Assembly (NCBI GenBank): GCA_005888755.1
Contig: VBBQ01000002.1
Coordinates: 788-13,535, forward strand
Origin: Candidatus Bathyarchaeota archaeon
GTDB taxonomy: Archaea > Thermoproteota > Bathyarchaeia > 40CM-2-53-6
Direction of reading: 5' to 3'
Length of the DNA: 12,748 nucleotides
In this document: piece after piece, positions 1 through 12,748 of the stretch
Layout: every line of letters starts with the position of its first letter
Numbering within the stretch: the first letter of the stretch is position 1
Notes under the pieces: generated by a model
Databases searched by the model: none
What the model was told of the DNA's origin: nothing
What the model saw: the letters and a program-made list of their open reading frames with translations, nothing else
Program-made: the position numbers and the translations under genes

Positions 1-1319
1 GCTGGTTCGTCAAAATACATCCTCTTGATCAGCCAACCATAGTAGCTCATACTGAAACCGCTGTTGACCAGCGCCGCTAATGCTAGATAGCCGCCCCAGC
101 TATACGGCGAATAGATCGACCCTGTGAAGAGCATGACTTTGCTGAAAAACCCGTTAAGAGGAGGCACTCCTGCGAGGCCGAGAAAAATTACAGCAATGCT
201 CAAAGACGTTTGTGGCATTCTACGAGATAGCCCATTGAAAGATTGAATATCCCTGACTGAAAGCTTGGTGGCAACTACCGCAGCAGCAACAAAGGCAGCC
301 GTCTTCAGAATGGCATAGTTTAGAACGTGGAAGAGTCCACCCTCCAGACCCAACGGCACCTTGGTCGTCGTGAAAGGAGTGGCGAGCGCCATTAGGATGT
401 AGCCGGCCTGGGCAATGCTGGAATAAGCGAGGAGTCGTGTAAAGCTCTTCTGCATCAGAGCCGCAACGTTTCCCACGGTCATTGTTACCACAGCCACAAT
501 CGCAAAGGTCGAATAGAAATCCACATTGAAGGCGGCGATTCCTACGATGAATACTCGAAAGGCTGCCGCGAAAGCTGCCATCTTCGCGCCTGAGGCCAAA
601 AAGGCGCCAATTGTCACGGGGGCTCCTTCGAATGCATCCGGTATCCACATGTGGAAAGGAACGACTGCCATCTTCACCCCGAAACCGACGATGAACAGGA
701 CGATGGCGAGGACGCCGAACGGACGGACATCAGGTCCCGCGGCCGATAGAGAGCTTGCGATGGCGGTTAGCCCAGTGGAGCCTGTTACGCCGAAAACCAG
801 GGAAATGGCATAGACTATGAGCGCGGAGGAGAGCGCTGACAGGACGAAGAATTTCATAGCGGCTTCGTTTGAATTCGGATCGTTCTTTCTGAACGCTGTC
901 AGAGCATAGGTTGGAATGCTCATCAGCTCCCAGCCTACGTAGAGAAGAACCAGATCCATTGAAGCGGCTAGGACAATCATGCCGAGGGTTGAGAGAAGCA
1001 GGAGTCCGAAAAACGGTCCCTTGTTAGGGTCCTCTCGCATATATTGCAGCGAGGCGACGGTTACGAAGATTGCTACGATTAGTAGGACTCCTGAGAAGAA
1101 AAGGGTAAACAAGTCAACTCGGAGTCCCCCGAAAGACACTGGTGAAGAGCTGGTGAATCCCAGCCATACCGTGGATACTAGGGCCACGGCCAGACCTAGG
1201 ATGCAGACGAAGGGCGCGAGACCAAGCTTCGAATTTCTGAATCGAAGAAAGCCAGCGGGAGTGGCGAGCAGTCCGAATACCGCTAGGCTGAGAAACGGAG
1301 TCAGCGATAGTAATGCCAA
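1..1319 (-). CDS. nuoN: NuoN-like complex I membrane subunit, C-terminus cut off by the window edge
   Basis: One of the antiporter-like proton-translocating subunits of the complex I membrane arm. The minus-strand frame is open from TTG at 1319 to the left edge, giving about 439 residues of a protein that is usually about 450-500. A TAA stop lies directly in frame before the TTG and no ATG is available near it, so TTG is the likely start. AAGG is found about nine bases upstream, inside the end of nuoM. Family residues seen: the TM5 Glu at 131 (GWELMSIPTYAL), the TM7 Lys at 216 in a GFGVKMAVVPFHMWIPDA motif, the TM8 Lys at 246 (ASGAKMAAF), and Lys 394 in GFFSKVMLF, where NuoN has Lys and NuoM has Glu. 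The LAYSSIAQAGY block is at about 297-307. It starts seven bases after the nuoM stop and is the last membrane-arm gene visible in the operon. The missing C-terminus would hold the last one or two helices. Confidence 0.93.
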   Translation of the reverse strand, partial: MALLSLTPFLSLAVFGLLATPAGFLRFRNSKLGLAPFVCILGLAVALVSTVWLGFTSSSPVSFGGLRVDLFTLFFSGVLLIVAIFVTVASLQYMREDPNKGPFFGLLLLSTLGMIVLAASMDLVLLYVGWELMSIPTYALTAFRKNDPNSNEAAMKFFVLSALSSALIVYAISLVFGVTGSTGLTAIASSLSAAGPDVRPFGVLAIVLFIVGFGVKMAVVPFHMWIPDAFEGAPVTIGAFLASGAKMAAFAAAFRVFIVGIAAFNVDFYSTFAIVAVVTMTVGNVAALMQKSFTRLLAYSSIAQAGYILMALATPFTTTKVPLGLEGGLFHVLNYAILKTAAFVAAAVVATKLSVRDIQSFNGLSRRMPQTSLSIAVIFLGLAGVPPLNGFFSKVMLFTGSIYSPYSWGGYLALAALVNSGFSMSYYGWLIKRMYFDEP

Positions 1320-1325
1320 TTAGGT

Positions 1326-2816
1326 TTACCTTGCTCCCAGAGCAGCGATTATTCCAACCCACTTCTCCACCGTCGGCGTAATCACACTCCCTAGTATGGG
1401 AGGAGGATACACTCCGAAGATCAGCAACGGAACGAGAAATGCGACTAGAACCAGGATCGAGTGAAGGTGCAGCTCGTTCTTGGGACCAGCTCCGGGGGTC
1501 ATGGCTACCCGTCTTAGCATCCAGAGGAAGTATCCGACAGTGAGAGCTGGAGCGACGATGGCGATGGCGAAGAGATAGCTTACGCTAAGAGCTCCCTGGA
1601 TCACAAGATATTCACTGATGAAGTTGGCGAAACCAGGAACCGCCATTGCAGCCATTGAGGCCAAGAAGAGGAGTGTGACTGTCTGAGGCATCTTTCCTCT
1701 CAGCCCCTTCAGCTCGTCGATATTTCTGGTTCCTGTGTGTTCGTGGATGTACCCGGACATGAGGAAGAGCATTCCAACTGCAAGCCCGTGGCTGAACATT
1801 TGAAAGACCGCTCCTGAAACCCCTGCAACGGTCGCGGTGAACGCTCCGAGTAGAACGTACCCCATGTGATTGACACTCGTAAGGGCAATCATTCTCTTGA
1901 TGTCCTTGGCGACGAGTGCGACTGATGCACCGTAGATCATAGTGATGAGACCGATGGTTGTGAGGTAGGGCCAAAGAACAGTGACTGCCTTCGGGAAGAG
2001 TAGCAGGTTGTATCGAATCAATCCGTAGCCTCCCATCTTCAAGAGCAAGCCAGCTAGGAGAACGCTGACCGGTGCCGGCGCCTCTACGTGGGCATCAGGA
2101 AGCCATGTGTGAAGCGGGAATATAGGAAGTTTTACGGCGAATCCAACGAAGGTTGTGATTGCTACGACGAGCTGAAGGGGGAGGGCAAGGCTAGGAATCC
2201 TGGCGGCGAGAACATCATAATCGAACGAGGGACCGCCGGGGTAAGCAGAGGTTCCGGTCCAGGCGTAAAGGGCAAGAAAACCAAAGAGCATCACTGCGCT
2301 ACCAGAGTAGGTGAAAATGAGAAATTTGATGGAGGCATATCTCCGTCGGGGTCCGCCCCAGATTCCGATGAAAAAGAACATTGGAATGAGAACGATCTCC
2401 CAGAAGAGATAGAACAGGATCAGGTTGAGAGAGGTGAAGACGCCGATTATTCCTGTTTCGAAAATGAGAAAGAGGGCGTAGTACTCCGCGTGTTTGAAAG
2501 TAATTTGATCCCATGATCCCGCGGCGGACAAGAGGCTCAGAAACGTGGCGATCATGAGGAGTGGAAGGCTGATTCCGTCAACTCCGACTTTGTAGTTGAG
2601 ACCAAAGGACGCCGCCCAGGGAGCACTCTCTGAGAGCTGGAACCCGGGCTGACCATATTGGAAAACTACGAGAATCAGGATCGAGATCGCAAAGACGACG
2701 GCAGTGGTCCCTACCCCCATGACCTTAGCAACTTTGGCGTTCTTCCTGCCGAGCAGATACGTCGGCGCGGCGAGCACTGCTGGGAGAAAGATTGCGATTG
2801 AAAGTAGTCCGATCAT
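1326..2816 (-). CDS. nuoM: Canonical NuoM-type proton-translocating subunit of complex I
   Basis: An antiporter-like subunit of 496 residues, the usual NuoM length, with about 14 hydrophobic segments. It couples quinone reduction to proton movement across the cytoplasmic membrane. All key charged residues are present: TM5 Glu140 in FYLFWEIVLIPMFF, TM7 Lys229 in GFAVKLPIFPLHTWLPDAH, TM8 Lys260 in LLLKMGGYG, His317 in SVNHMGY, His343 in FSHGLAVG, and TM12 Glu402 in ANFISEYL. These match the E. coli NuoM residues E144, K234, K265, H322, H348 and E407 as I recall them. The ATG start lies directly after the nuoL stop codon (TAA-ATG, no gap), which points to translational coupling. Since the more divergent NuoM-like subunit is the one encoded upstream of nuoL, I take this gene as the standard nuoM and the other as the extra copy. 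The family call is very secure. Confidence 0.97.
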   Translation of the reverse strand: MIGLLSIAIFLPAVLAAPTYLLGRKNAKVAKVMGVGTTAVVFAISILILVVFQYGQPGFQLSESAPWAASFGLNYKVGVDGISLPLLMIATFLSLLSAAGSWDQITFKHAEYYALFLIFETGIIGVFTSLNLILFYLFWEIVLIPMFFFIGIWGGPRRRYASIKFLIFTYSGSAVMLFGFLALYAWTGTSAYPGGPSFDYDVLAARIPSLALPLQLVVAITTFVGFAVKLPIFPLHTWLPDAHVEAPAPVSVLLAGLLLKMGGYGLIRYNLLLFPKAVTVLWPYLTTIGLITMIYGASVALVAKDIKRMIALTSVNHMGYVLLGAFTATVAGVSGAVFQMFSHGLAVGMLFLMSGYIHEHTGTRNIDELKGLRGKMPQTVTLLFLASMAAMAVPGFANFISEYLVIQGALSVSYLFAIAIVAPALTVGYFLWMLRRVAMTPGAGPKNELHLHSILVLVAFLVPLLIFGVYPPPILGSVITPTVEKWVGIIAALGAR

Positions 2817-4907
2817 TTAGGTAGCTCCGACGACGAATAGCATGTAGGCGAGGAGGAGAATTATTCCGATAGCGAAGGCTATGACATACTGCTCTGTTAC
2901 CCCCGACTGTAGCCTTCGCAAGAGATTGCTGAGCCGGGACCCGTAAGACGCAACTTCGTTTGCGGCCCGGTCTACAACTTGCGTATCAAGTTGATCACTC
3001 GCTCGTGAATAGTCCATAATGTCCTTAGCAACTACGTTGTTCAACCTGTTCCAGATTCCCTGTTCAACGTACGCGTATAGACCGCGACTTGCCGCAAGCA
3101 GGCCCGAGACGAAGACTTTGTAGTAGATCGCGTCCAGATACCAGCGTTTCCAGAAGAACCGCTGGATCGGGTTCATCGCGGTCTCGAATTCATAGCTTTT
3201 CCGGAAGTAGAGGAAGTAGGCAATTGCGCCACCAACAATGGCCACAGCAGTACTCACAGACAACAAAAGAAGGTCGGTAAGACTGGAAGCCGAGCTAGTT
3301 GCAGATGGAAGAGCGTAGATTGTAGAGCTGAAGGTACTCGCAACATACCTGGTCAATGGACCGCTGTAAATGGGGTAGCTTAGTCCAAGCGCCAAGCTGC
3401 CAACAGCAAGAAGCAGGTAGGGAATGAGCATCGTGAGGCTGGCTTCGTGGGGATGCTTTCCACTCTCCATGAGCTCCTCAAGGTGTTTGCTTGGCTTTCC
3501 TGCCAGTGTGATACCTAACATTCGGACGGTATAGAAACCTGTAATGAATGCTGTAGCGAGTGCTAATCCGTAGAGGATGTACTGTCCGCCGAGGAAGCTC
3601 AGGGACAGTATCGCGTCCTTCGTCCAGAATCCGCTAAAGAGTGGAATGCCCATCAGGGAGAGTCCTGCCAAGAGCATCGACGCGGAGGTAAGCCTCATCG
3701 CCTTTGCCAACCCTCCCATTTCATCCATGAAACGGGATTCTGTGACGTGTAATACCCATCCGGCGGCTAGGAATAATGAAGCCTTGAAAACGGCGTGGCT
3801 GAGGAGGTGAAAGAGCCCGGCCGTATAGCCTGCTAGGAAGTTAGCGCTGAGCCCTGCTAATCCGAGGGCCAGCATCATGTAGCCAATCTGCGAGACTGTG
3901 GAATAAGCCAGAACTTTCTTTATCTCGCGAGCGACAGCGGCCTGAGTTGCAGCAAGAAGGGCGGTTAGCGCGCCTATCCAGGCGATAAAGCCGAAGAATT
4001 GCGGCACTTGGTTGAACTGGGACAGGGCGATGAAGAATACGGGTCCCATCCTTCCTGTCAGGAAGACTCCGGCTTTGACCATTGTTGCAGCATGTATCAG
4101 AGCGGAGACTGAGGCGGGACCGGTCATCGCATCCGGAAGCCATTCCTGCAATGGAAACTGTGCTGATTTCCCAATCGGTCCGCCGAAAAACAACAAGGCA
4201 GTAGGGAGCAGGAGACCCAGCCGAGCCAGATTCGCAGCCCAGCTCCCCGAACCGCCGAGCTGTGTTACTAACTGATTGTAGTTGAAGGTCCGGGCGAAAG
4301 CGTAGATTAGAAAGATTGCGATCAGCAGTGCGATGTCTCCAATTCTTGTCATGATGAATGCTTTCATCCCCGATTTTGTCGGCGAGTATTCTTCGGAAAC
4401 ACCTAGGGCTTTGTCGCCAGGTGTACCGACCCAGTATTGGGGTTCGTCTCGGTAGAAGTGGCCTATCAATGCATAGGAGCAGAGGCCAACTCCTTCCCAA
4501 CCGAAGAACATCATCAGCAGATTGTCAGCGAGCACGAGAAGTAGCATGTTTCCGATAAAGAGGTTCATGAAGAACCAGTATCGCGTCATGCCGAATTCGC
4601 CCTTCATGTAGCCGACGCTATAGATCATGATGAGGAGGCTGATCCATGCAACAATGTTGGCCATGAAGAGGCTGAGAGGATCGACTAGAACTCCGGCGGT
4701 GATGCTGAGAGAGGGAATCCACGCGACAGTGTAGTCTCCGGCCGAGACCGTTAGTGCCGTTATGGTCGACAATACGGCCGCAACAAGAGTGAAACCGACT
4801 GCTGCAACATCACGAATTCTAGAGTGAATCTTCGCGAATAACGGGGTGAGAAGCGCGCCTATTAGTGGCGTGACCCAGATGAGCCATGCGAGAAGAGAAG
4901 TGGCCAA
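2817..4907 (-). CDS. nuoL: NuoL subunit of complex I with an extended C-terminal lateral helix
   Basis: The distal antiporter-like subunit, 696 residues against about 613 in E. coli. Seen: TM5 Glu138 in GWEGVGLCSYALIG, TM7 Lys247 in GKSAQFPLQEWLPDAM, His272 in ALIHAATM, Lys331, His371 and Lys375 in SHAVFKASLFL, and Lys430 in FWTKDAIL. After the last antiporter helices, a long amphipathic helix runs from about 591 to 672, followed by a final membrane helix at 673-692. This helix is about 30 residues longer than in E. coli; the added part is around 610-641. A loop at about 152-180, between TM5 and the next helix, is also about 18 residues longer. Lys278 stands where E. coli NuoL has Thr; the MrpA antiporter subunit has Lys there. 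The start is TTG, four bases after the stop of the upstream gene. The next in-frame ATG would remove the first helices, so TTG is preferred. Confidence 0.96.
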   Translation of the reverse strand: MATSLLAWLIWVTPLIGALLTPLFAKIHSRIRDVAAVGFTLVAAVLSTITALTVSAGDYTVAWIPSLSITAGVLVDPLSLFMANIVAWISLLIMIYSVGYMKGEFGMTRYWFFMNLFIGNMLLLVLADNLLMMFFGWEGVGLCSYALIGHFYRDEPQYWVGTPGDKALGVSEEYSPTKSGMKAFIMTRIGDIALLIAIFLIYAFARTFNYNQLVTQLGGSGSWAANLARLGLLLPTALLFFGGPIGKSAQFPLQEWLPDAMTGPASVSALIHAATMVKAGVFLTGRMGPVFFIALSQFNQVPQFFGFIAWIGALTALLAATQAAVAREIKKVLAYSTVSQIGYMMLALGLAGLSANFLAGYTAGLFHLLSHAVFKASLFLAAGWVLHVTESRFMDEMGGLAKAMRLTSASMLLAGLSLMGIPLFSGFWTKDAILSLSFLGGQYILYGLALATAFITGFYTVRMLGITLAGKPSKHLEELMESGKHPHEASLTMLIPYLLLAVGSLALGLSYPIYSGPLTRYVASTFSSTIYALPSATSSASSLTDLLLLSVSTAVAIVGGAIAYFLYFRKSYEFETAMNPIQRFFWKRWYLDAIYYKVFVSGLLAASRGLYAYVEQGIWNRLNNVVAKDIMDYSRASDQLDTQVVDRAANEVASYGSRLSNLLRRLQSGVTEQYVIAFAIGIILLLAYMLFVVGAT

Positions 4908-4911
4908 TTGT

Positions 4912-6417
4912 CTATGACCCCACTATGGCCCTTGCTGCTGAAAGTAGTCGACCGAGTATAGGCTCGGGATAGATGCCCAAGACTAAGGTTACGATGCTCA
5001 GTGTGATGAGAGGAAGGGTAATCGTCCACGGCGCTTCCTTGACATCGGAGGTATCCGAGTTCGGAGCTCCAAAGAAGATCTTCTTCATTGCCATTAGCGA
5101 ATAGCCTGCTGTAAGAGCTGTGGCGATAATTCCAAGGACAGCAATTACAAGACGATATTCCGAGGCTGTATCGGTAGCTCGCACGAATCCGCCTTGGAAT
5201 AGGAAGAATTCGGACAGGAACCCATTGGTGGAGGGGAGACCGGCGAGGGTTAGTGACCCAATGAAGGCAGCGGTCGCAGTGATGGGCATTTTGCTGGCGA
5301 GTCCTCCGAGCTTGCTCAGGCTTCTCTCGCCGCGGACCTGAAGCATAACCGCCCCGACCACGATGAAGAGTATTCCTTTGGCGGTCCCATTGCTCACGTA
5401 TTGAAACATAGAGCCGGAAACGCCGAACGAGTTGAATGCTGCGAGCCCGAACAGAATGTAGCCCATCTGGCTGATACTAGAATATGCAAGCAGCCTCTTG
5501 ATGTCATCCTGCACTAGCGCCATCGCGCTACCGTAGATCATTGTGATAAGGGCCCAGCCTGCGAAGAAGGCGGAAAAGGTAAGGAAGGATTGCGGGAATA
5601 TTGTGATGACTATTCTGACGGTGGCGTATCCACCTATTCCTGTCATTGCAGCGGCTAGAATCGCGCTGATCGGTGTGGGTGCCTCGGCGTAGGCGGATGG
5701 AAGCCAGACGTGTAGTCCGAATTGGCCTATCTTTACGAAGAATCCAAAGCACATTGCTGCGACTATCCCAAGTCGGAGGGTTGTTGAGATGAGTCCTGGG
5801 GTTGCAGTGAGGTTGCCGATTACAACGTCCATATCCGTAGCGCCAGTCAGAAACGCGGTGACTAGGATCCCTACGAGGAGCACTAACGCTCCGACATGGG
5901 TCCAAATGAAGTATGTTAGCGAGATTCTTTCTTTCTCGCCGTAGCCCCATTCGGCGATGATGAAGAAGGATGGAACGAGCATGATCTCAAAGAAGAGATA
6001 GAACTCGATCAGGTTCGTCGCTAGAACTGTCCCGATCATTCCGAGAGAGTAGAGAGCATAGAGGCTGTAGTACAGCCCGTAGCGTCCTGGGTCGTCGCCT
6101 ATTCGTTGCCGCATATATGGGACAGAGAAGAGAGAAACTAGGGCCGTGAGCAGGCTGATGATGAAGAGTATTGGGAGGCTTAGGTTGTCGACTCGGAAGC
6201 CGAAGTTTCCGATTGGAGACCACGAATATAGTTCCTGGTAAGCTCCTTGATTGGACCCTGATCCTTGAAGTGCGGCGTATAGTATCGTGATGAGCGGGAT
6301 GAGAAGAAGGGCGAAAGAGACGAATCCGGTTTTGTCCTTTAGCCGCCTCGCGAGTGAGTAAAGAATTGGAATGGCCAACAGCGGTACGATTATCGCGCCG
6401 ACTAGGAGGAGAGTCAT
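4912..6417 (-). CDS. Second, divergent NuoM-like subunit (NuoM2), likely a fourth proton pump of complex I
   Basis: A 501-residue antiporter-like protein of the NuoM family, placed between nuoK and nuoL where a standard operon has no gene. Conserved features seen: TM5 Glu144 in FYLFFEIMLVPSFF, TM7 Lys229 in CFGFFVKIGQFGLHVWLP, DDIKRLLAYSSISQMGY at about 304-320, and TM12 Glu403 in NGFLSEFF. Several residues typical of NuoM are changed. The WLPDAHVEAP motif reads WLPSAYAEAP (Ser241, Tyr243). The TM8 Lys is replaced by Thr259-Gly260. The two His of the second half-channel are Gln317 and Asn343. The ATG start follows the nuoK stop by seven bases, with AAAGGT ahead of it as a possible ribosome-binding site. 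By position and family I infer that it is an integral extra pump of the same complex. It is less likely to be a separate Mrp-type antiporter, because no Mrp genes are nearby. Confidence 0.93.
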   Translation of the reverse strand: MTLLLVGAIIVPLLAIPILYSLARRLKDKTGFVSFALLLIPLITILYAALQGSGSNQGAYQELYSWSPIGNFGFRVDNLSLPILFIISLLTALVSLFSVPYMRQRIGDDPGRYGLYYSLYALYSLGMIGTVLATNLIEFYLFFEIMLVPSFFIIAEWGYGEKERISLTYFIWTHVGALVLLVGILVTAFLTGATDMDVVIGNLTATPGLISTTLRLGIVAAMCFGFFVKIGQFGLHVWLPSAYAEAPTPISAILAAAMTGIGGYATVRIVITIFPQSFLTFSAFFAGWALITMIYGSAMALVQDDIKRLLAYSSISQMGYILFGLAAFNSFGVSGSMFQYVSNGTAKGILFIVVGAVMLQVRGERSLSKLGGLASKMPITATAAFIGSLTLAGLPSTNGFLSEFFLFQGGFVRATDTASEYRLVIAVLGIIATALTAGYSLMAMKKIFFGAPNSDTSDVKEAPWTITLPLITLSIVTLVLGIYPEPILGRLLSAARAIVGS

Positions 6418-6424
6418 TTCAGGT

Positions 6425-6733
6425 CTAACCTTTCAGCTTCGACAGTTTTGAGAGATCTATCTCGGCATTCAGTCTTGAGACTAGGATGATTATCGAGAGC
6501 CCGACAGCGGCTTCCATCGCGGCGAGCGCAATGGTGAACAATACCAGTACCTGCCCGGTAACTATGGGAGGATTACGGAGCCGTGCGAAAGCTATGAGAT
6601 TGAGATTGGCCGCGTTGTAGATCAGTTCTACAGAGAACAGAATCCGGATAGCGTTCCGTTTTGTCGTCAGACCGTAGATTCCGATGCCAAGGAGAATTAC
6701 CGAGACTGCGAAGAAGCTTGATAGGGGCTCCAT
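6425..6733 (-). CDS. nuoK: NuoK subunit of complex I
   Basis: A small membrane subunit of 102 residues, the normal NuoK length, with three membrane segments at about 6-22, 29-50 and 60-86. It sits between the quinone-proximal NuoH/J/A part and the antiporter subunits and belongs to the chain of charged residues along the membrane arm. The two family glutamates in the membrane are present: Glu36 in FSVELIYNAANLNL and Glu74 in AAMEAAVGLSI, matching E36 and E72 of E. coli. The ATG start lies three bases after the nuoJ stop, and the stop lies seven bases before the second NuoM-like gene, so it is clearly part of the same transcript. Nothing is unusual in the protein itself. Confidence 0.96.
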   Translation of the reverse strand: MEPLSSFFAVSVILLGIGIYGLTTKRNAIRILFSVELIYNAANLNLIAFARLRNPPIVTGQVLVLFTIALAAMEAAVGLSIIILVSRLNAEIDLSKLSKLKG

Positions 6734-6736
6734 TTG

Positions 6737-7231
6737 TCACGGCCCTCGATCTGTCTTCGATAATGCCAACGCGCCAATTACTGCAGCCGCCATCACAAGA
6801 GACATGAACTCTAGTTGAACTCCATAGTTCTTCAGAAGAGAAGTGCTGAGCAGATAGAGGTCGCAGCCCGATCCGCAGGAGTCTTTCCCTGGAAAGGCCG
6901 TCGCGTTCGCCAGCGCGCCAGTCATTCCAAGTAACAAGGATACCAGAATAGCCGCGAGGAGCGATACTCGTTTGAGCCCGAGGGGGGCTTCTCCCATTTT
7001 TGGCCCGACGAGCATAACTGTGAACAAGATCAGAACAACTACCGCGCCGATGTAGACCGCGATCTGGAACCAGCCTACATAGGCTGCATCAAGAAGAAAG
7101 AATAGTCCTGCTACTCCTAAGAACGCGATTCCTAGAGCTGCGGCACCGTAAACTAGATCTCTTGCTTCGATCGCAAGGATTGCGGCGCCGATTGTCACTG
7201 CGGCGAAGGCTAGAAACAAGAGGTCTGTCAT
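6737..7231 (-). CDS. nuoJ: NuoJ subunit of complex I
   Basis: A membrane subunit of 164 residues with about five hydrophobic segments, matching NuoJ in order and character. It begins MTDLLFLAFAAVTIGAAILA and contains the Gly- and Ala-rich second helix (about 29-45) and the DAAYVGWFQIAVYIGAVVVL stretch, where the family has a conserved aromatic and small-residue pattern around TM3. NuoJ helps form the junction between NuoH, NuoA and NuoK; its TM3 moves during turnover in known complex I structures. The ATG at 7231 is chosen because it lies eight bases after the nuoH stop. An open extension upstream to 7318 would overlap nuoH, and it encodes a basic, non-membrane stretch unlike NuoJ. The usual neighbour nuoI is absent between nuoH and nuoJ. 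Confidence 0.94.
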   Translation of the reverse strand: MTDLLFLAFAAVTIGAAILAIEARDLVYGAAALGIAFLGVAGLFFLLDAAYVGWFQIAVYIGAVVVLILFTVMLVGPKMGEAPLGLKRVSLLAAILVSLLLGMTGALANATAFPGKDSCGSGCDLYLLSTSLLKNYGVQLEFMSLVMAAAVIGALALSKTDRGP

Positions 7232-7239
7232 TTTTCGGA

Positions 7240-8247
7240 TTAGAATGTCGGGAGTCCTACGACCAAGAGGTAGGTTATGCCTATGTTGACTATCGCGAGC
7301 GTGAGAAGAGTGGTCCAACCCGCCCGGAGAAGTTGGTCAAGACGCACTCTGGGAAATGTCGATCTTAGCAGCATTATCAGGATGATTACCACGAGAGTCT
7401 TGGAAAGCATCCAGAAGAGCGGGGGAAGAAGGCTTGGTCCAAGGAAGCCTCCAAGGTATATTGTGGTGAAGAGGGCTGAGAAAGCGTAGAGTTTCACGAA
7501 GCCTGGGCCTTGGGCTGCGAGGAAGAGGACCCCAGGATATTCTGCCTGCCAACCCATCATGATCTCAGACTCCGCTTCGGGCAGGTCGAACGGGAGTCTC
7601 TCCATCTCCGCCACGCTAGTGACCAAGAAGATGAAAGCGCCAAGAGCCTGGGGAATGATGAACCATCCAGTGGATTGGGCAGCTACAATCTGAGCCAGGT
7701 TCAGGGTTCCTGCCATCATTATCACGCCAAGCGCCGAGAGCCATAGCGGAATCTCGTACGCTGTTTGTTGGAAGAGCGCTCGCAGTCCACCGATAAACGG
7801 GAATTTGCTATTCGCGCTCCATCCCGCCAGAAGGACCAGGCTCGGGGAGAGGGTGATGATTGCAAGGAAGGCAGGAAGCCCAACCTCGATGTTCGCAATT
7901 TGAAGCCCCGGTGCGAATGGGATAAGCCCAACGAGAGCCGCTCCGATGACAAGCCCAGTAGTCGGAGCCATTATGAAGAAGAAGGCGTCGGAATTCTCAG
8001 GAACGAACAATTCCTTGAACGAGAGTTTGATCAGATCCGCAAACATCTGAAGAATCCCGCCAGCTGGACTCGCATATAGCGGGCCGATGCGAAGTTGCAC
8101 TCGGGCGGTCACCTTGCGCTCTAACCATCCGAGGAGCGCGCCTATGATCGCGATCGAAGTAAGGCCTGGAAAGAGCACAATCATGAGGAAAAGCGGGCTT
8201 GTGACCATGTCAATCAGAGGTTGCAGCGGCCCAAGCATTGGCGCCAA
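7240..8247 (-). CDS. nuoH: NuoH subunit of complex I (quinone-site membrane subunit)
   Basis: A 335-residue membrane protein with about eight to nine hydrophobic segments. NuoH anchors the peripheral arm and forms much of the quinone chamber. Family blocks seen: ERKVTARVQLRIGP at about 43-56, GGILQMFADLIKLSFKE, then LLAGWSANSKFPFIGGLRA, AYEIPL, and LPFDLPEAESEIMMGW in the cytoplasmic loop near the quinone site. Near the C-terminus RVRLDQLLRAGWTTLL is found. The frame can start at TTG 8247 or at ATG 8238, three codons later. TTG sits about 13 bases after a GGAG that overlaps the nuoA stop codon, so I give it as the start, but the ATG is nearly as likely. The gene follows nuoA by 15 bases. In most complex I operons nuoB, C and D lie between these two genes; they are missing here. 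Confidence 0.95.
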   Translation of the reverse strand: MAPMLGPLQPLIDMVTSPLFLMIVLFPGLTSIAIIGALLGWLERKVTARVQLRIGPLYASPAGGILQMFADLIKLSFKELFVPENSDAFFFIMAPTTGLVIGAALVGLIPFAPGLQIANIEVGLPAFLAIITLSPSLVLLAGWSANSKFPFIGGLRALFQQTAYEIPLWLSALGVIMMAGTLNLAQIVAAQSTGWFIIPQALGAFIFLVTSVAEMERLPFDLPEAESEIMMGWQAEYPGVLFLAAQGPGFVKLYAFSALFTTIYLGGFLGPSLLPPLFWMLSKTLVVIILIMLLRSTFPRVRLDQLLRAGWTTLLTLAIVNIGITYLLVVGLPTF

Positions 8248-8262: not shown

Positions 8263-8634
8263 CTACCAGTTCTCCCGATGATTGGCCAGGTGGAGCGCAT
8301 AACCCAAGGGGATCAGGAGAACGACGATGAAGACGAGAACTGGAAGGGACCCTGCTTCACCAAGACTCCTTAGATTCAGTCCCCAAGCGAAAAGGAACAT
8401 GGCGATGACATCGTAGACGACGAACATCAGGAGGTATGGATAGTACTGGATGATGAACCGGGTCCTACCGGGGCCCACCGCGATCTGGCCCGATTCGAAT
8501 GGTTTCTTCTTTTCCGGGGTCGGTCGAGGATCTCGCGGTGTAATCAAGAGCTTTAGGACGATGATGAGAGCGACCGTCGAGACGAAGAGGAAACCGATGT
8601 AGGCTCCGATCTCCGGGATTCCCTGCGCGACCAT
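8263..8634 (-). CDS. nuoA: NuoA subunit of complex I, first gene of the membrane-arm operon
   Basis: A 123-residue membrane subunit with three helices at about 10-30, 62-82 and 92-112. After the first helix comes the cytoplasmic loop ending in KKPFESGQIAVGPGRTRF, close to the family pattern (PYESGxxP..xxRFxxxYY). This is followed by QYYPYLLMFVVYDVIAMFLFAW with the conserved Asp in the second helix. NuoA binds alongside NuoH and NuoJ near the quinone site. A GTG at 8667 would add 11 basic residues, but it lies upstream of the transcript start expected from the TATA-like box at 8681-8688. I therefore choose ATG 8634. The final residues HLANHRENW are followed by TAG. Confidence 0.94.
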   Translation of the reverse strand: MVAQGIPEIGAYIGFLFVSTVALIIVLKLLITPRDPRPTPEKKKPFESGQIAVGPGRTRFIIQYYPYLLMFVVYDVIAMFLFAWGLNLRSLGEAGSLPVLVFIVVLLIPLGYALHLANHRENW

Positions 8635-8680
8635 TTTTTTGGACCCGTAGCTCGATCTTCGAGCCACCCGGAGTTTAGCT

Positions 8681-8715: not shown

Positions 8716-9648
8716 TTATTCCTTCCTCTTCCATAGATAATCGGCGTATTCTTCGAGAATCTTCCGGTTTCTCAACCGTTTTACCTTCCGCAACGATGCC
8801 TTTGCTTCGATTGCGTAGTCTCTCGCGCGTTTCCGTGCGAACTCTAGGGAGCCGGTTCTTTTCAACAGCTGAAGCACCTCCTTGTTGCTATGACCGTTGT
8901 TCGAGTTCAATACGTCTGAGTTATTGTTAGGACGCGGCGCTTCATGAAGACAGTGGGAAGTCACAATGTTCGGTCCTTTCAACAGTTGTTCCCCGGAGCC
9001 GTTGTGGAAATCCAGTACGTCATCTTGAATCTGAAACGCCATTCCACCTGACCGCCCAAATTTCTGCATGCTGACAAGATCCTTTCCCTCTACCCCCGCA
9101 ATTGCAGCTCCGATACCAGCTGCGCTTCCGAACAGAGAGGCTGTTTTCAGATCAGCTATCGCGATACACTCGCTTACGCTTGCATTCAAGTCTGAAATAA
9201 TGTCTAGAAGTTCTCCTCGGCTTACATCTACCAGGCTCGAGCCGATCATCCTCATGACCTCTGCATTCTTATAGTTAGACAACAGCTGAACGCCTTTGGA
9301 CGCCAGAAACAATCCCGAGGTCAAGGCCTTCTCGTTACTGAACGCCATGTGAACCGTGGGAGCTCCCCTACGGACTTGATCCTTATCGATGAGATCATCG
9401 AAGACAAGCGTAGCGGCGTGAATTATCTCCAGTGCTGCGGCAGCATCCAGAGCCTCATTAGGGTCTCCCCCGAAAGCCTTCGTTGAAAGAACCACCAACA
9501 GAGGCCTGCAGCGTTTGCCTCCAGTCTTGAACATGTACTTGATAATCTGATTTGCCTCTTCTCGATCGAAGTTCGTCTCAAGAGTATTGTCAATTTTTTC
9601 CTGAATGGGACCCCGCCAACTCTTGAAGACCGGAGGAAAGACACTCAT
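8716..9648 (-). CDS. Trans-isoprenyl diphosphate synthase, probably long-chain
   Basis: A 310-residue enzyme that condenses isopentenyl diphosphate onto an allylic diphosphate, acting in the cytoplasm. Seen: GGKRCRPL at 43-50 for substrate binding, the first aspartate-rich motif DDLID at 84-88 followed by RRG (93-95), and the second motif QIQDDVLDF with Asp209, Asp210 and Asp213. The fifth residue before the first motif is Ala79. Enzymes making C15-C20 products usually have a bulky aromatic there and long-chain synthases a small residue, so I infer a product of about C30 or more, for example a menaquinone side chain. The usual GKxxGxDLxEGKxTLP block after the second motif is not recognisable: the sequence reads LLKGPNIVTSH and then an Asn-rich stretch (240-256). 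The product could therefore be a divergent GGPP synthase or a non-catalytic partner. The ATG at 9648 is preceded by a TATA-like box, and the gene lies 81 bases upstream of nuoA on the same strand. Confidence 0.9.
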   Translation of the reverse strand: MSVFPPVFKSWRGPIQEKIDNTLETNFDREEANQIIKYMFKTGGKRCRPLLVVLSTKAFGGDPNEALDAAAALEIIHAATLVFDDLIDKDQVRRGAPTVHMAFSNEKALTSGLFLASKGVQLLSNYKNAEVMRMIGSSLVDVSRGELLDIISDLNASVSECIAIADLKTASLFGSAAGIGAAIAGVEGKDLVSMQKFGRSGGMAFQIQDDVLDFHNGSGEQLLKGPNIVTSHCLHEAPRPNNNSDVLNSNNGHSNKEVLQLLKRTGSLEFARKRARDYAIEAKASLRKVKRLRNRKILEEYADYLWKRKE

Positions 9649-9701: not shown

Positions 9702-9756
9702 TCGGTTGCAATCGGACGCCTTCTCTGATTATCGGTATGTAGATGCTTGAAACAAC

Positions 9757-9765
9757 CTTTATACC
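9757..9765 (+). promoter_or_regulatory. TATA-like box deciding the start of the unrecognised plus-strand gene
   Basis: The sequence CTTTATACC is a good archaeal TATA match. Its expected transcript start, near 9787, lies downstream of the ATG at 9743. That ATG would therefore not be in the mRNA, and the in-frame GTG at 9806 becomes the likely start. The same ATACC ending is seen in the boxes proposed for the cupredoxin and the right-hand membrane protein. Confidence 0.55.
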
Positions 9766-9805
9766 AATAAATAGCGAGAAATGTTGTCAATCTTCGCGGA
9801 CAGCA

Positions 9806-10747
9806 GTGACCTTCGATCTGTCATTTTACAGAACGAAAAGTACACAGGAACCGAAGGTCGAGGATCTTCGAGAGTTCTTCCGGGCATTGCCGAACTTTCG
9901 GATGCGAGATATCGATGTTGAGCAGCTTCAGAAATCGCTAGCGGAAAAAGGCGCTTCCCGTCTTGAGGTCAAAGAAGCATATGACATAGACTACGAGAAC
10001 CAGTCTACAGGGGTCTACTTCCAAATGTTTTACACACCCACAAATTCATCAAATGAAGAGCCTTCCTTCCCGAACTTGGACCCAACAGGTCTCGGAGCGC
10101 ATGTCAATCTCGTCAGACCAACCTACTTTGCCCTAGAATCGTTTCCCCTAATAACACAAATTGCCGACAAGTTTGGTTTATTGACCTTCGACAACCAAAT
10201 TACTTCAAGACACAAGGAACCCTTTAAGGCGGACTCCGCTACCCTAACCGAATCTTGGATTGCAACCAACAGCTGGGCTATCGGCAACTTCAGGAAAGAA
10301 GGTCATAGCATAAAATATCTCCCAAGAGAACGCCTTGATTACAACTGGAACTTCCTTAGACAATGCGTTGGCATGCAGCAGAGACTAGGCGATCACGTGT
10401 TTGTTCCGACAAGGATATTCTTGGCAGAGAAGAATTCTTTCCTAGGGACCTTCGTCACATGGACAGATTACATTCCAATGGTCCTTCCTAGTGTCGATTG
10501 GATAGTCATGGGTCAATCGAAAGGCGGCAAGGATTTCTCGACTAGAGGTTTTGCTCGATTTGGTGATCTCCTTCCGATTCTCGCCAACGATCTGAGAAAC
10601 TTGTCAGAACCTGTCCCGCACTATTTGCTCTCCAATGATTTGACAAAGGACACTAGAAAGAAGCTCGAAAAGCTTCAACTCATTGATAAGAAAGAGTTTA
10701 AGGCCCTTCCTCCCAGCGTGAACGTCGTCGATGTTCCGCCCAATTAG
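9806..10747 (+). CDS. Unrecognised soluble protein, possibly immunity-protein-like
   Basis: I do not recognise a defined domain with confidence. From GTG 9806 the protein has 313 residues and no signal peptide or membrane segment. It starts TFDLSFYRTKS, which resembles the N-terminus of uncharacterised bacterial proteins (MSxDLYFYxxK) often found as immunity partners of contact-dependent or polymorphic toxins. That resemblance is from memory and weak. An acidic N-terminal segment (about 15-75) is followed by a mixed region rich in aromatic residues (100-260) with GLGAHVNLVRPTYFALESF and VTWTDYIPMVLPSVDWIVM. The C-terminal 50 residues are charged and probably helical. In-frame ATG 9743 would add 21 residues (including two adjacent Cys) but lies before the expected transcript start. 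The gene is divergent from the prenyl synthase and has no obvious functional tie to its neighbours. No toxin gene is next to it. Confidence 0.75.
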   Translation: MTFDLSFYRTKSTQEPKVEDLREFFRALPNFRMRDIDVEQLQKSLAEKGASRLEVKEAYDIDYENQSTGVYFQMFYTPTNSSNEEPSFPNLDPTGLGAHVNLVRPTYFALESFPLITQIADKFGLLTFDNQITSRHKEPFKADSATLTESWIATNSWAIGNFRKEGHSIKYLPRERLDYNWNFLRQCVGMQQRLGDHVFVPTRIFLAEKNSFLGTFVTWTDYIPMVLPSVDWIVMGQSKGGKDFSTRGFARFGDLLPILANDLRNLSEPVPHYLLSNDLTKDTRKKLEKLQLIDKKEFKALPPSVNVVDVPPN

Positions 10748-10904: not shown

Positions 10905-10954
10905 TAGCTGAAGCTTGGTATGGACGTTTCGAAAGATAGGGTATTTTCATAATC

Positions 10955-10962
10955 CTTATACC
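10955..10962 (+). promoter_or_regulatory. TATA-like box for the cupredoxin gene
   Basis: The sequence CTTATACC places the transcript start near 10985. The predicted leader is only about 14 bases but still holds an AAGGGA ribosome-binding site (10988-10993) before ATG 10999. The ATG at 10915 is excluded because it lies upstream of this box. Confidence 0.55.
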
Positions 10963-10998
10963 AAAAGAAAACGAGCGCACATAAATCAAGGGAAAAAA

Positions 10999-11433
10999 AT
11001 GGAAACATCACCAAAACCATCCGAAGCACCTAACTCCAAAAGCAGTCCAACGAAGCTCATTGCGATAGTCGTAGTAATATTAATCGTAGTGGGCGTCGCA
11101 GCTTACATCCTGACCCTACCGCCAGCCTCCACTGCCGCAAACGTACTCATGAAGGACGACGGCGCTTGTGCGGCCTCGGCCGCCGCTTGTCTGTTCAGTC
11201 CTACCTCTTACAACGCAACGGTAAACGGGCCCGCCGTTGTCTGGAAAAATGTTGGAGGAGTTCCCCACACGGCAACTTCGAATTCCACGGCAAACGGTAG
11301 TCTGCCGTCGTTCAACAGCAATACTATCGGGCAAAATGGTGGAACTTTCTCTTTCACCTTCACCGCAAAGGGCACCTACCACTATTACTGCAACATCCAT
11401 CTCTGGATGAAAGGCATAATCTACGCAAACTAA
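10999..11433 (+). CDS. Membrane-anchored blue copper protein (cupredoxin, plastocyanin/amicyanin-like)
   Basis: A 144-residue type I copper protein, likely a one-electron carrier facing the outside of the cytoplasmic membrane. Residues 1-18 are polar with two Lys. A single hydrophobic anchor spans about 19-40, followed by a cupredoxin domain from about 47 to the end. The copper ligands are visible: His90 in NVGGVPHTAT, and Cys131, His134 and Met137 in YYCNIHLWMKG. The C-x2-H-x2-M spacing is the short loop seen in amicyanin and many archaeal cupredoxins. Cys57 and Cys64 lie close together outside the copper site and could form a disulfide. The ATG at 10999 is supported by AAGGGA about six bases upstream and by the TATA-like box at 10955. 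A subunit IV-like oxidase gene nearby suggests it donates electrons to the terminal oxidase, or carries them from a quinol-oxidising complex; this is inference. Confidence 0.93.
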   Translation: METSPKPSEAPNSKSSPTKLIAIVVVILIVVGVAAYILTLPPASTAANVLMKDDGACAASAAACLFSPTSYNATVNGPAVVWKNVGGVPHTATSNSTANGSLPSFNSNTIGQNGGTFSFTFTAKGTYHYYCNIHLWMKGIIYAN

Positions 11434-11531: not shown

Positions 11532-12407
11532 CTAGGATATCCTACAATTTCTGCCGTTGTGGTTTTGCAGCGATCTTGCGGATAATAGCGGGGACGCGAC
11601 GAGAATTGGTATGCTTATGACAACGAATATGGTCTGGAGAGAGCCTAGAAAGAACGAGGTGGACAAGGTGCCGGCTCCACCGAGCACTGAAATGAGGGCT
11701 AGCCCTGCGCAAGTCGGACATGATGTGAAGAGGCCGACGAAAGCTCCTATCCATCCAAGCCAGCCGATTCCAGCGTTTTTTGTTCGTAGCGAGAGAGCAA
11801 AACTTGCAAAGCTTACGTTGAGACCTACTAACCATGAAATTGAAAAGAGGAGAAGCAGGTTGATCGGAACGAAAAGAACCCCGATATGCTGAGAGACGTA
11901 GGCAACAACTATTGGGGTTTCTCCGATGGGCCCACAACAAGTAGCGATGGCCAACGAAGGTATCCCGACGTGATAGGCCTCTGAGAAACTAAGCGAAGGT
12001 TGAACGACCACAATTCCGGAAGCAAACGCATAGAATATGCCGTACACTAAGGCAGACGTCGTAAGCAGCCGCGAGTATAGACTCTTGCCAAAGGCAACGG
12101 CGATTGATCGGGAGACCGACAGCGGGTCCCCGGAGGCTTCGGCTGAGGACCAGTTAATCAGAACATTCGTTGCGCCAGAGAAGAGCAAACATGATCCCAA
12201 TATGTCAACGGCCAGGGCGAAATACGCATAGCCCACCACAAGGATCTCGCTTCGGACACCGCCGTTGAGATTCAAAGCGGCCACTATAGGATAAGTTGTG
12301 AATCCGAAAATCACGAGAAGAGCGCCAACAAGCGCGATCCGCAAGGATCGACCGCGGCCGGACAAAAGTCGGCTACTCATTAGTACGAGTCTCCCAGCTT
12401 GTGCCAT
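11532..12407 (-). CDS. Polytopic membrane protein with CC-G-P and C-P-T-C motifs, function unknown
   Basis: A 291-residue protein with about six or seven membrane segments (about 22-45, 54-79, 112-136, 148-160, 165-195, 218-240 and 252-275). Two cysteine motifs stand out near membrane edges: ATCCGPIGETP at 156-165 (Cys157, Cys158) and TSCPTCAGLALISVLGG at 229-244 (Cys230, Cys233). His146 and His174 flank the first motif. A C-x2-C pair and an adjacent Cys pair in the membrane suggest metal binding (for example copper) or thiol redox chemistry. I recall similar uncharacterised archaeal membrane proteins with these motifs but cannot name a family. ATG 12407 is given as the start. ATG 12380 (residue 10) has GGGAG about ten bases upstream and is a real alternative. 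The gene lies 88 bases downstream of the subunit IV-like gene on the same strand, so a role in oxidase assembly is possible but unproven. It converges on the cupredoxin. Confidence 0.8.
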   Translation of the reverse strand: MAQAGRLVLMSSRLLSGRGRSLRIALVGALLVIFGFTTYPIVAALNLNGGVRSEILVVGYAYFALAVDILGSCLLFSGATNVLINWSSAEASGDPLSVSRSIAVAFGKSLYSRLLTTSALVYGIFYAFASGIVVVQPSLSFSEAYHVGIPSLAIATCCGPIGETPIVVAYVSQHIGVLFVPINLLLLFSISWLVGLNVSFASFALSLRTKNAGIGWLGWIGAFVGLFTSCPTCAGLALISVLGGAGTLSTSFFLGSLQTIFVVISIPILVASPLLSARSLQNHNGRNCRIS

Positions 12408-12495: not shown

Positions 12496-12748
12496 TCAAT
12501 GAACATGCAATTGTATGAAGACGAGTGACATCAGCAACGAAGCTATAACGAGACCTATCAGGACCCAGGACGAGAGCGACCTCGGCTCGTATTTGAGGTG
12601 CTGGTAAAACAAAGCGATTAGGAGAGCCTTCATCCCCGCCAAACCCAGGAGAGTGCCCACTATCAATCCATAGGAAAGCGCAATTGTTCCGAAAAGCATC
12701 GCCACGCCAGTCGACGCCGACGGATACAACGCGACAATGTTAACCTCT
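12496..12748 (-). CDS. Cytochrome c oxidase subunit IV-like protein, probably cut by the right edge
   Basis: The frame encodes a small membrane protein matching the prokaryotic subunit IV (COX4/CyoD-like) pattern: GMKALLIALFYQHLKYEPR, in which the helix ending in K-A-L-L-x-x-L-F-x-x-H-L-K is the family hallmark, followed by a last helix (SSWVLIGLVIASLLMSLVFI) and a His-rich end, QLHVH. This subunit is a small accessory part of haem-copper quinol or cytochrome oxidases in the membrane. The frame is open to the right edge with no stop. TTG 12729 could start a 77-residue protein, but that is short for the family, so the true start probably lies beyond the window. Further oxidase genes would be expected there. 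The stop is TGA at 12498-12496. Confidence 0.72.
   Translation of the reverse strand, partial: EVNIVALYPSASTGVAMLFGTIALSYGLIVGTLLGLAGMKALLIALFYQHLKYEPRSLSSWVLIGLVIASLLMSLVFIQLHVH

Follow-up and report, generated by a model that had tools for sequence, protein, structure and literature searches.

The closest described relative of the locus analysed here is the "2M" complex I, an already known kind (Chadwick et al. 2018, ISME J 12:2668, as summarised in PMC7300363 and PMC9040806) which was also reported for heterotrophic Thaumarchaeota (PMC7300363). According to these summaries its gene cluster includes a pair of NuoM genes, and the lateral helix (HL) of its NuoL is about 26 residues longer; both traits are shared by the window, i.e. 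the whole 12,748-nucleotide stretch of Candidatus Bathyarchaeota DNA under study. The window differs in belonging to a Bathyarchaeia family, in that its M proteins come from different NuoM lineages and in having the peripheral arm encoded on another contig together with an FrhB/FpoF-like subunit. The heterotrophic marine Thaumarchaeota clade 2 (PMC7300363) has a complex of the 2M type and, like the window, no NuoEFG, but possesses its own NuoBCDHI in the same cluster, where no FrhB-like gene was found. The Complex_I_3 of Ca. Manganitrophaceae (PMC9040806) also combines extra pumps with a 26-residue HL insert, although it is bacterial, has five pumps and carries two MrpD-like subunits in place of its NuoL. 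The archaeal Fpo/Fqo F420H2 dehydrogenase resembles the window in the FrhB/FpoF-like input subunit and the lack of an NADH module, whereas the known Fpo has three pumps and the window four plus a longer HL. Finally, complex I of ammonia-oxidising archaea shares with the window close relatives of the L, M2 and N proteins and the order K-M2-L-N, but has no bacterial-type M, and its HL is 38–39 residues long.

The window contains the gene order nuoA-H-J-K-M2-L-M-N on its minus strand, with no internal stops and with intergenic spacing from nuoJ through nuoN of 0–7 bases. The small and proximal membrane subunits are represented by nuoA (8263–8667; Pfam Oxidored_q4, 71.5 bits), nuoH (7240–8247; NADHdh, 297 bits), nuoJ (6737–7231; Oxidored_q3, 84 bits; an ATG start is given here, the mechanical ORF starting at 7318) and nuoK (6425–6733; Oxidored_q2, 80 bits). 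They are followed by an archaeal-type nuoM (4912–6417; assigned by tree and residues), named M2 in the sequence-only reading of this DNA, by nuoL coding for the distal pump with an extended lateral helix (2817–4907; Pfam/NCBIfam, tree), by a second nuoM of bacterial type (1326–2816; TIGR01972, 480 bits, tree, residues and homologues) and by nuoN (3–1319; TIGR01770, 318 bits), which is cut at the window start before its C-terminus. All four pump genes score 207–246 bits against the Pfam model Proton_antipo_M, whose cut-off is 21.5, and exactly these four are the Proton_antipo_M genes of the genome (G000; 2.01 Mb, 95% complete). At the window edge nuoN runs into an assembly gap (N at contig positions 769–791), and the expected C-terminus resumes behind it, so the gene is considered intact apart from this gap. 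The genes nuoB, C, D and I are located outside the cluster.

The initial proposal of four intact antiporter-like genes, closely spaced and ordered K-M2-L-M-N, is thus borne out by the gene calls and the unambiguous Pfam/NCBIfam matches, and a search of related genomes, as suggested there, detected the same order in other genomes of the family as well as in ten families of Nitrososphaeria. Because of this recurrence the arrangement cannot be attributed to chance. Every defining feature of 2M complex I that can be checked on sequence is present, namely two NuoM proteins with NuoL and NuoN, an HL insert of about 26 residues, the channel residues and a cassette conserved in relatives. We consider it highly probable that the membrane arm encoded in the window is that of a four-pump complex I of the 2M kind, likely fed by F420H2. 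A search of the available literature found no earlier report of 2M complex I in this Bathyarchaeia family. It is a known enlarged kind of complex I, encountered in a new archaeal family.

Which of the two NuoM proteins is the additional one was judged from a tree of 130 pump proteins (quick method, SH-aLRT support). The protein encoded at 4912–6417 groups with archaeal NuoM/FpoM (28 rows, support 99) in a clade including proteins of ammonia oxidisers, Desulfurococcales and Fpo-like Bathyarchaeia, and not with Mrp, a placement which the sequence-only reading had named as refuting it. The clade of the protein encoded at 1326–2816 includes NuoM from E. coli, Sinorhizobium and Mycobacterium (21 rows, support 99); inside it, this protein groups with M from four-pump cassettes of Nitrososphaeria-like genomes (15 rows, support 99). 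The former protein is therefore the ordinary archaeal NuoM/FpoM, orthologous to the single NuoM/FpoM of other archaea, and the pump added relative to most archaea is the bacterial-type NuoM at 1326–2816, which Nitrososphaeria that do not oxidise ammonia also have. Hence an archaeal four-pump complex I, as first proposed, is supported by the gene order of relatives, the tree and the extended HL, but the extra gene had been misassigned to the NuoM-family gene between nuoK and nuoL. M and M2, which share only 36% identity, represent two different NuoM lineages and not a recent duplication.

The same data bear on the suggestion that one of the M genes codes for a stand-alone Mrp- or hydrogenase-type antiporter located in the cluster by chance. 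These families are all homologous, and many Mrp and hydrogenase NCBIfam models are indeed listed below their cut-offs; nevertheless, both M proteins exceed the NuoM subfamily cut-off of 263.8 bits (480 and 325 bits), none of the window pumps groups with the MrpA/MrpD proteins, which are found elsewhere in the 130-protein tree apart from the NuoM clades, and there is no further Mrp-type gene in the genome, which makes such an origin extremely improbable.

All four pumps possess the TM5 Glu, the TM7 Lys and the TM12 Glu/Lys. The archaeal-type M keeps Glu144 (TM5), Lys229 (TM7) and Glu403 (TM12), and the bacterial-type M keeps Glu140, Lys229, Lys260 and Glu402. At the TM8 site, M and N have the Lys, NuoL has a corresponding His and M2 a Gly, the last residue also being found in the one NuoM that ammonia oxidisers and Desulfurococcales possess. 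Nothing among these residues suggests that one of the four would be a dead pump.

The HL of the window NuoL (residues 601–664; 2916–3107, minus strand), counted between two conserved anchors in an alignment of NuoL C-termini, has 64 residues as against 37–39, about 26 more than in three-pump complexes. A length of 63–64 residues was found in all 24 four-pump cassettes; among the 36 three-pump cassettes, 28 have an HL of 34–42 residues and the other eight one of 64–66, except for a single HL of 116. Fisher's exact test of HL length against pump number gives 4e-10, a value which is descriptive only because the sequences are related. HL length was rejected as sole proof of a fourth pump on account of the eight three-pump cassettes with a long HL, in agreement with the caveat from Manganitrophaceae, where the 26-residue insert also occurs without an extra pump (PMC9040806). 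The HL insert of published 2M complexes is similar to the present one in both length and position.

These observations are relevant to the alternative that two three-pump complexes are formed, sharing L and N and using M or M2 depending on conditions, with never four pumps in one arm. Key residues are kept in both NuoM proteins, three-pump cassettes with a long HL exist, and it is from the genes that we infer one shared particle. On the other hand, the genes form a single cluster with gaps of 0–7 bases, and HL is long in every four-pump cassette but short in the amoA-carrying relatives without the extra M, making the alternative rather improbable. In the preferred four-pump reading, four antiporter-like subunits would be incorporated into one arm of a redox-driven ion pump, the clamp across them being the lateral helix of NuoL with its additional unit of 26 residues. 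Electrons would enter via NuoBCDI and the FrhB/FpoF-like subunit, most likely from F420H2, and pass to quinone, and each turnover might move about five ions instead of four.

A tandem duplication as the source of the HL insert was not accepted for the four-pump set, in which the signal is moderate (offset 26, z 3.7; offset 30, z 3.5); other lineages show the repeat clearly (offset 26 or 27). An AlphaFold model of NuoL alone, built on a 10-row alignment, has a mean pLDDT of 65.5 and values of 32–42 in the HL region, too low to judge helix continuity. Three Fpo-like three-pump clusters (L042, L043 and L064) have an HL of 65 residues with a clear 27-residue tandem repeat and no added pump in the cluster. 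A NuoL-like protein of another Bathyarchaeia family (L039:6361-8472; G088, family f11) contains an HL of 116 residues made of 26-residue repeats, its cluster including only three pumps and an FrhB-like gene.

The peripheral arm genes nuoB, C, D and I are situated on another contig of the genome (G000 contig C3) and are followed by a gene coding for the FrhB/FpoF-like protein. The B-C-D-I-F order is kept in the family, with the FrhB-like gene directly after nuoI in 12 of the 12 loci examined. The protein has N-terminal 4Fe-4S motifs, matches solved F420 enzymes and scores 220 bits against the F420-hydrogenase beta models, the best model being FrhB with a curated cut-off of 269, above the score. 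The genome also possesses cofD, the only cof gene looked for, with a score above the cut-off, which points to a capacity for F420 synthesis, and no match to NuoF, the 51-kDa protein of the NADH module, was found in it. FrhB-like subunits can serve other enzymes, and it is from the FrhB/FpoF-like neighbour, the presence of cofD and the absence of NuoF that we infer F420H2 rather than NADH as the most likely electron donor.

The main rival donor is reduced ferredoxin; in this case the four-pump complex would be fed by ferredoxin or some other carrier, and the FrhB-like protein would belong to a different enzyme. Ferredoxin input is often proposed for complexes without NuoEFG (PMC9038741), and the Nitrososphaeria four-pump loci examined contain no match to an FrhB-like subunit, but the invariable position of the gene after nuoI in the family, the N-terminal 4Fe-4S motifs and the presence of cofD argue against it, and we regard it as somewhat unlikely.

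With regard to distribution, the named relatives whose M2 is 93–98% identical are MAGs from soil that bear the label Candidatus Bathyarchaeota or Crenarchaeota archaeon. The K-M2-L-M-N order recurs in relatives of the window genome within its family (f1), while the other families of its order, where clusters were assembled, have three pumps arranged as N-L-M or L-M-N. Homologues of the extra M with 42–54% identity were detected in 32 of 300 genomes sampled from a Nitrososphaeria-like class (that of G359), representing 16 genera. Among the cassettes fetched, the K-M2-L-M-N order is present in the Nitrososphaeria families f61, f70, f71, f77, f78, f80, f81, f84 and f85, and in f73 with a fifth pump in addition; the f77 genomes are small (0.8–0.9 Mb) and probably belong to the heterotrophic marine Thaumarchaeota group.

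The window cassette groups with the Nitrososphaeria-like four-pump cassettes in the trees. When the H, M2, L and N proteins of 36 cassettes are concatenated for a tree, f1 and Nitrososphaeria form a clade with a support of 96, inside which the ammonia oxidisers are nested, and the complex I of the other families in the order of f1 falls into a separate clade (support 100), which makes it likely that f1 acquired its complex I horizontally. The four-pump state requires two changes on this tree compared with 12.4 in shuffles, and the favoured reading has the state gained once at the base of the clade formed by f1 and Nitrososphaeria and lost once in the ammonia oxidisers. Within this clade, amoA is present in six three-pump genomes and was not found in any of the 16 tested genomes that have four or five pumps. 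All six amoA carriers lack the extra M and have a short HL (38–39 residues), which suggests that the extra M and the HL extension were lost together. A duplicated M has been stated for ammonia-oxidising Nitrososphaerales (PMC9038741), contrary to which it is absent from the six amoA-carrier clusters read.

Four-pump complex I is thus common across non-ammonia-oxidising archaea and extends to a soil Bathyarchaeia family, in which it is probably F420-fed. The nested ammonia oxidisers provide pairs matched by nature, in which a long helix accompanies four pumps and a short one three pumps, and which allow asking whether pump number sets the proton-to-electron ratio. The apparent loss in this group is among the most interesting by-products of the analysis, the others being the NuoI inteins and a cluster of five pumps in which HL is extended twice over.

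The five-pump cluster (L125:165-7945; G436 contig C108) contains five antiporter-like genes in a row, M-M2-L-M-N, and the HL of its NuoL measures 91 residues, about two units above the three-pump form. It is located on a single contig of a MAG that is 79% complete, and no second such cluster was found among 400 genomes of the Nitrososphaeria-like class. As a tentative idea, to which we give somewhat less than an even chance as a whole, pump number may be modular and change stepwise, one more pump corresponding to about 26 HL residues; f1 would then have obtained an F420H2-driven four-pump version from Nitrososphaeria, a pump and a helix unit would have disappeared together in the ammonia oxidisers, and the Nitrososphaeria-like genome of L125 would have advanced to five pumps and an HL of 91 residues.

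The nuoI gene of the window genome (L009:7777-9366, on contig C3) is interrupted by an intein with Hint and LAGLIDADG domains, inserted directly before a Cys ligand of the second 4Fe-4S motif, i.e. between CCFCHF and CTDYCP of the spliced product; splicing would be needed to make this cluster. In the family, nuoI is uninterrupted in L139 and L140, and other members contain the intein. A paper search found no NuoI inteins in the literature. Members of the Nitrososphaeria-like family f61 (L110, L122 and L124) carry NuoI inteins at this site too; in L122 and L124 there are two of them, six host residues apart and both inside the second 4Fe-4S motif.

The remaining window genes include a polyprenyl synthetase gene (8716–9648; Pfam) that shares the strand of nuoA and immediately precedes it, perhaps serving a quinone or lipid side chain. 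ORFs 9743–10747 and 11532–12407 have no Pfam match, the latter resembling a membrane protein with a CPTC motif. The complex I cluster is also adjoined by genes for a plastocyanin-like cupredoxin (10915–11433) and a cytochrome c oxidase subunit IV-like protein (12496–12729), which together suggest that the organism respires aerobically and uses copper in an electron carrier.
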